Source of the DNA: a virus
Virus record (IMG/VR): IMGVR_UViG_3300010399_000008
Coordinates: 1 to 64,000 of that record
Length of the DNA: 64,000 nucleotides
Strand: one strand, 5' to 3'
Positions 42,387-42,483 of this stretch are shown here, piece after piece. Both the position numbers and the translations under genes were made by a program. The notes beneath the pieces were generated by a model, which saw nothing but the letters and a program-made list of their open reading frames with translations, ran no database searches and was not told the DNA's origin. Position 1 is the stretch's first letter, and each line of letters starts with the position of its first letter.

Positions 42387-42483
42387 GCGGATGACGCCTA
42401 GATGGTTAGGCACCGAATGCCGCACTTGCTCAGTTTGAGCCGATGGTTATTCGTTATCGCTGGTTCGATTCCAGTCATCCGCT
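42387..42483 (+). ncRNA. tRNA-like RNA with Y-RNA module in place of the anticodon loop
   Basis: Acceptor stem GCGGATG/CATCCGC (42387-42393, 42476-42482) is perfect. D arm GCCT/AGGC with GG in the loop, and T arm GCTGG-TTCGATT-CCAGT (42459-42475) follow tRNA rules. The anticodon stem CGAAT/ATTCG (42414-42418, 42449-42453) carries a 30-base insert: CACTT, then hairpin GCTCA-GTT-TGAGC (42428-42440), then CGATGGTTAT. The insert is the Ro-binding motif in permuted order. No anticodon can be assigned, so it should not decode. Ends could be made by RNase P and the tRNA 3' enzyme. Inference, but well supported by pairing. Confidence 0.72.

Follow-up and report, generated by a model that had tools for sequence, protein, structure and literature searches.

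Bacterial Y RNAs are known mimics of tRNA. Chen et al. 2014 reportedly found such RNAs in the neighbourhood of Ro60 in over 250 bacteria and phages. A tRNA body joined to another module, or composed of reversed halves, is also found in tmRNA and in the permuted tRNA genes of algae and archaea, and these have no Ro-binding module. We know of no Y RNA of Deinococcus radiodurans or of animals in which tRNA ends surround a closed Ro stem. The closest described system is YrlA, a circularly permuted tRNA mimic that superposes on tRNA by circular permutation (PMC11472068). Its basal stem binds Rsr/Ro60, and its tRNA-like domain was described as a binder of PNPase (PMC8394870). In YrlA, the Ro stem is formed from the ends of the molecule and the acceptor is closed. 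Here, we describe an RNA unit with the opposite order, which looks like an overlooked, reordered form of this tRNA-mimicking Y RNA.

The window, i.e., the whole stretch of 64,000 nucleotides that was analysed, covers positions 1 to 64,000 of the IMG/VR record IMGVR_UViG_3300010399_000008 (full record 64.5 kb). Its long open reading frames, read by eye, include capsid-, tape-measure-, terminase- and portal-like ones, and by this reading the source is a tailed phage. A Ro60 orthologue of 543 aa with TROVE and vWA_Ro60 domains (Pfam) is encoded on the plus strand at 42635-44266. The protein is full length and aligns throughout with Xenopus Ro60 (1yvp) and D. radiodurans Rsr (2nvo), as shown by the PDB matches. 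Its identity to the Ro protein of mycobacteriophage LinStu is 46.8%. The residues which we take to be the Y RNA contacts of vertebrate Ro60 (K170, R174, and H187) are identical at the aligned positions of the window protein. Elsewhere in the window, a caspase-domain protein (Peptidase_C14, E 8e-20) is encoded at 49698-50495 beside a nuclease-like gene and a DUF1353 gene, and a TnpB-like transposon protein (IS605/IS607 type, by eye) at 19279-20505. The regions 41272-41850 and 44648-46644 encode proteins with a secreted look, one of which carries LMLAFEQLESRCLTA near its start, and a trypsin-like peptidase. Exported proteins of planctomycetes have this motif in the same place, and these features together hint at a planctomycete host.

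Three RNA units (U1, U2, and U3) are located directly 5' of the Ro60 gene and share its strand. No promoter-like site was found upstream. The first, U1 (42317-42386), was recognised by fold and sequence as a Y RNA-like unit (GAGGGCCGAAGG..GTTATC / CACTTGCCCTC) without a tRNA-like domain. The third, U3 (42484-42620), is a YrlA-order unit, the ends of which form the Ro stem GCGGGC/GCCCGC, with the acceptor closed by GAAA, as in YrlA. It contains a T arm (42530-42546), a D arm (42569-42583) and, after GTTATC, an anticodon-type hairpin (42510-42524). Between the plain Y RNA and the YrlA-order RNA lies U2 (42387-42483), with its 3' end 151 nt from the Ro60 gene. In our sample, the two orders are clearly adjacent in this window only.

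The acceptor of U2 is formed by GCGGATG (42387-42393) and CATCCGC (42476-42482), which pair in 7/7 Watson-Crick pairs, and the discriminator T42483 follows. The D arm GCCT-AGATGGTT-AGGC (42396-42411), read from the sequence and placed by the classifier, has 4/4 pairs, and the T arm GCTGG-TTCGATT-CCAGT (42459-42475), also aligned by the Rfam tRNA model, has 5/5. A closed Y RNA module was delimited at 42414-42453 by sequence, fold and an alignment (A1) with 31 relatives. It contains CACTT, the closing hairpin GCTCA-GTT-TGAGC (42428-42440) and the CCGATG motif, together with the helix strands CGAAT, GCC, GGT and ATTCG. The strands CGAAT (42414-42418) and ATTCG (42449-42453) pair with each other, as do GCC and GGT. 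The conserved Y motif GTTATC (42453-42458), invariant across the aligned family, abuts the T stem. All Y motifs are intact in U2, and its minimum-energy fold contains all the named helices, minus two T-stem pairs. The acceptor, D arm, T arm, CACTT and hairpin had been listed in an earlier, sequence-only reading of this DNA, and each was found in its place. The same reading took CGAAT/ATTCG for an anticodon stem. These strands instead make up the second of the Y module helices, and in the relatives, as in U2, the invariant GTTATC comes after them. It also put the insert into the anticodon loop. The inserted Y module stands, but its site is the junction of the D arm and the anticodon arm, and relatives often keep an anticodon-type hairpin after the module.

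We could confirm that the Y module of U2 is of the Ro type and lies, circularly permuted, in a tRNA frame beside a Ro60 gene. Its Ro-binding strands and their spacing are like those of the D. radiodurans Y RNA (RF01053) and animal Y RNAs. With YrlA (RF02553; Salmonella YrlA structure 6CU1), it has in common a Ro-binding stem with CCGA(A/T)G / CACTTG strands, the D arm, T arm and acceptor stem, and an adjoining Ro60 gene. Unlike YrlA, it has tRNA ends and a loop-closed Ro stem, and many of its relatives have an anticodon-type hairpin, whereas the Rfam YrlA model is without such an arm. U2 also resembles tRNA (RF00005) in the 7-bp acceptor, D arm, T arm and T loop TTCGATT, which fits the TTCRANY pattern of tRNA. 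The Rfam tRNA model aligned exactly to 42387-42483 with 37.8 bits (gathering 29; E 1.8e-6) and a 31-nt anticodon insert. The differences from tRNA are a Y RNA hairpin insert of 30-32 nt in place of the 7-nt anticodon loop and the composition of the tRNA core, where A14, G18, and G19 are present, but position 8 is A and position 21 is T instead of U8 and A21. CCA is not encoded. With nothing between GTTATC and the T stem, U2 as it stands would be unable to decode, which agrees with the earlier claim.

A covariance model (R1), built from 28 other elements with the window excluded, matched U2 end to end with 51.4 bits (E 1.7e-11). Since ordinary tRNAs reach ~52 bits with this model, the score alone is not enough and the Y motifs, which U2 has, are also required. 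U2 ranks among the more diverged members of the tRNA-order class. ARAGORN called no tRNA in the window, nor at any tRNA-order Y unit examined. An Rfam scan of the whole window at gathering level gave no match, although the short region passes the tRNA threshold; this miss presumably results from a filter effect. The Rfam YrlA model (gathering 69 bits) did not report U2 at E up to 10 and gave 14.4 bits for U3. Both the Rfam YrlA family and ARAGORN miss tRNA-ended Y RNAs. At gathering level, the Rfam tRNA model calls many Y RNAs of other loci tRNAs with an insert, and databases may hold tRNA-order Y RNAs as odd tRNAs.

The sequence-only reading also stated that it knew of no described example. 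In the open literature, with Chen et al. 2014 not covered, we found no description of the tRNA-ended order either, which is weak evidence of absence. U2 has many counterparts and belongs to a recurrent phage and bacterial class. At least 49 distinct tRNA-order elements were found in phages, cyanobacteria, Chloroflexota, myxobacteria and other bacteria, with Ro60 adjacent in nearly all. The viral set comprised 39 loci retrieved by Ro60 similarity, and a descriptor consisting of the acceptor, D arm and T arm detected the U2 layout in L006, L012, L015, L021, L034, L035, L038, L039 and others. A second scan looked for the closed Y hairpin itself, by a DNA pattern that made no use of Ro60 or tRNA. 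It yielded more phages and many bacterial genomes, namely cyanobacteria of the genera Nostoc, Desmonostoc, Calothrix, Crocosphaera, Symploca, and Coleofasciculus, as well as Caldilineaceae, Sorangium, Lihuaxuella, Abditibacterium and one gemmatimonad. Named carrier strains are Crocosphaera watsonii WH 8501, Nostoc linckia FACHB-104, Desmonostoc muscorum FACHB-395, Calothrix membranacea FACHB-236, and Lihuaxuella thermophila DSM 46701. The curated units have a 7/7 acceptor and 3-4 D-stem pairs; nearly all are located beside Ro60 on the same strand, mostly directly upstream. Matches in L052-L058, L061, L063, L064 and others were discarded as likely chance occurrences of the pattern in coding sequence; the acceptor, D and T arms were not all present in them. 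In the Mycobacterium phage prophiGD43A-5, the match to the tRNA order was weak and the acceptor imperfect. The cultured Gordonia phage Sixama, read by eye, has YrlA-order units, which lie unannotated amid tRNA genes (L130:5163-5560). One of these has ACCAC in the loop of its acceptor, as though this loop had been made by closure of a CCA end.

The linkage of the hairpin to Ro60 was also seen at the level of genomes. TROVE was encoded in 27/27 hairpin-carrying genomes or records tested versus 1/14 control genomes. Of 194 evenly sampled cyanobacterial genomes, 11 had the hairpin pattern and 26 had TROVE, and all 11 were within the 26 (P 2e-10 with the seed genome left out and shared ancestry uncorrected). 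The reversed hairpin pattern had no match in this sample. Up to six copies surround a single Ro60 gene in the cyanobacterial sample. Two loci, G152:C1:6636578-6639120 and G020:C149:92872-95272, have 5 or 6 closed Y hairpins per Ro60 gene, with one hairpin downstream. The Chloroflexota add little (pattern in 1/151, TROVE in 8/151).

Among 87 units with a Y strand and a T arm at related loci, 39 have an upstream 7/7 acceptor and 4/4 D arm. The chance expectation for this count was 0.44 with dinucleotide shuffles of the upstream sequence and 2.0 with the sequence upstream of another unit. RNAalifold, applied to a sequence-only alignment of 32 members (U2 and its 31 relatives), recovered the acceptor, D, Y, and T stems, with compensatory changes in 17/20 pairs. 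In these stems, 97.0% of the cells were paired, compared with 72.3% in shuffled and at most 49.1% in slid controls. Both sides were changed in 161 cells; shuffles gave 44.9 such cells and slid controls no more than 35. The covariation score was 0.724 versus 0.231 in the control, the acceptor part of the covariation being partly selected, as a 7/7 or near-7/7 acceptor was an inclusion criterion for the alignments. For this reason, the test of 87 units outweighs the covariation count.

The members of the class share further traits with tRNA. U8, A14, and A21, positions which the scan did not require, are each kept in 46/49 members, and N-CCA is encoded by 5/49 (P 0.001). At about ten loci (L006, L012, L038, L039, L048, L059, L074, L075, L100, and L150), gaps of 4-10 nt separate the units from real tRNAs or from other units, as in tRNA arrays. 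In two regions, L059:97-3335 and L048:1483-10043, tRNA-order Y RNAs are found within long tRNA arrays.

The reading that we prefer, and consider probable, is that U2 is a Ro60-binding Y RNA, permuted relative to YrlA and processed as a tRNA, that serves as a non-decoding tether of Ro60 to a tRNA-binding partner. U2 is co-oriented with the Ro60 gene and would probably be transcribed within the 5' leader of this gene. RNase P and the tRNA 3'-end enzymes would most likely excise it at 42387 and 42483, which would trim the neighbours U1 and U3 as well, and CCA would probably be added. The Y hairpin is predicted to bind the phage Ro60, while the tRNA-shaped body, without a usable anticodon, would be offered to a tRNA-binding partner, for example PNPase, as has been suggested for YrlA. 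Maturation by tRNA enzymes is suggested by the tRNA-like spacing of 4-10 nt and by the N-CCA encoded in the five members. The role of a tether fits because the Ro hairpin and the tRNA body are the conserved pair of features. Against this reading, tRNA enzymes could process U2 itself less well than its relatives, as it has no U8/A21 and no encoded CCA, and the absence of a promoter-like site upstream also counts against it.

The close spacing of U2 to U1 and U3, and the tRNA-like spacing at the other loci, would also be expected if the tRNA arms were mere processing punctuation that releases U1, U3 and the Ro60 mRNA, with no further role for U2. This explanation is unlikely, as the Y module, which is superfluous for punctuation, ranks with the most strongly conserved parts of the family, and at many loci we found tRNA-order units only, with no YrlA-order unit to be released.

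The frequency of tRNA arrays in the carrier phages would fit a decoy, i.e., an RNA that resembles a tRNA and, in infected cells, sequesters or inhibits the anticodon nucleases of the host or other enzymes that act on tRNA, while Ro60 stabilises it. Such an idea was already raised for YrlA (PMC7790460). The same RNA is present in cyanobacterial and other bacterial genomes, where a phage-specific decoy makes less sense, and the anticodon loop, the target of such nucleases, is missing from U2. We therefore regard a decoy as improbable.

The anticodon-type hairpin that follows GTTATC bears on another possibility. It occurs in both orders, often as CTNNNAA with a 7-nt loop, including U3 (42510-42524). 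Besides the window, it was found in L006, L015, L022, L038, L039, L042, L078, L081 and others, and the 'anticodons' vary between copies. In the 49 members, the loop is 7 nt long in 13, with U33 in 12 of those 13; loop lengths range from 3 to 9, and in 11 the hairpin is absent. The hairpin, the U33 and the acceptance of many relatives by the Rfam tRNA model as tRNAs with an insert would be consistent with a real tRNA gene that has a Y RNA intron. In such a gene, excision of the hairpin would release a free Y RNA, and ligation of the exons, perhaps by RtcB, would yield a decoding tRNA. When the Y module was removed from U2 and an anticodon arm was sought in the product, it was absent. The same holds for L012:2858-2951, which, like U2, has no residue between GTTATC and the T stem. 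Because this hairpin is lost or of variable loop length in the relatives and wholly gone in U2, decoding is not a conserved function of the class. We know of no bacterial tRNA introns of the size of the Y module, except self-splicing ones, and the conservation of the module is unlike that of an intron. Together with the members that lack the hairpin or have loops of 3 to 9 nt, this makes the intron reading very unlikely.

U2 had also been proposed to be the inverse of the YrlA layout, and this was borne out by in silico rotation. When YrlA-order units were cut at the acceptor loop and joined at the Ro stem, most of them matched the tRNA-order profile nearly end to end. The score rose from 23.4 to 40.8 bits for U3 and from 29.5 to 60.2 bits for L022. 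We conclude that a single RNA occurs in two circularly permuted forms. A quick tree of 76 Ro60 proteins had the tRNA order in each of its two deep clades and a scattered distribution of the YrlA order, with at least 5 changes; this is indicative only, as some order labels were set by hand and detection was incomplete. Permutation could readily arise in tandem arrays, as the end of a unit is able to pair with the beginning of its successor. That U2 is a degenerate product, without function, of a junction in a tandem YrlA array is most improbable: arrays do contain both registers, loss of the outer halves could yield a permuted unit, and U8 and A21 are lost in U2, but its 7/7 acceptor, 4/4 D arm, 5/5 T arm and all Y motifs are intact, and isolated tRNA-order units without a YrlA neighbour are conserved across phyla.

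The tether reading of U2 may be extended to the family as a whole. The broader proposal, for which we see even chances, is that the tRNA-order elements form an undescribed class of bacterial and phage Y RNAs that bear the Ro60 hairpin at the D/anticodon junction and would mature like tRNAs (RNase P, 3' processing, CCA). YrlA would be a permutation of this class, the two orders would have been exchanged repeatedly, and the free tRNA-like 3' end would be part of how the Ro60 particle works. A conserved class with real tRNA ends, at times with an encoded CCA or a position in a tRNA array, makes the reason for the mimicry testable, as the expected outcomes are cleavage by RNase P, addition of CCA and a tRNA body bound to Ro60. 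The class also bears on the origin of YrlA via circular permutation, and it explains tRNA-like genes with strange inserts that are missed by ARAGORN or labelled tRNA by Rfam. If the proposal is true, a free tRNA-like 3' end, beyond tRNA shape alone, would contribute to the function of the Ro60 particle.
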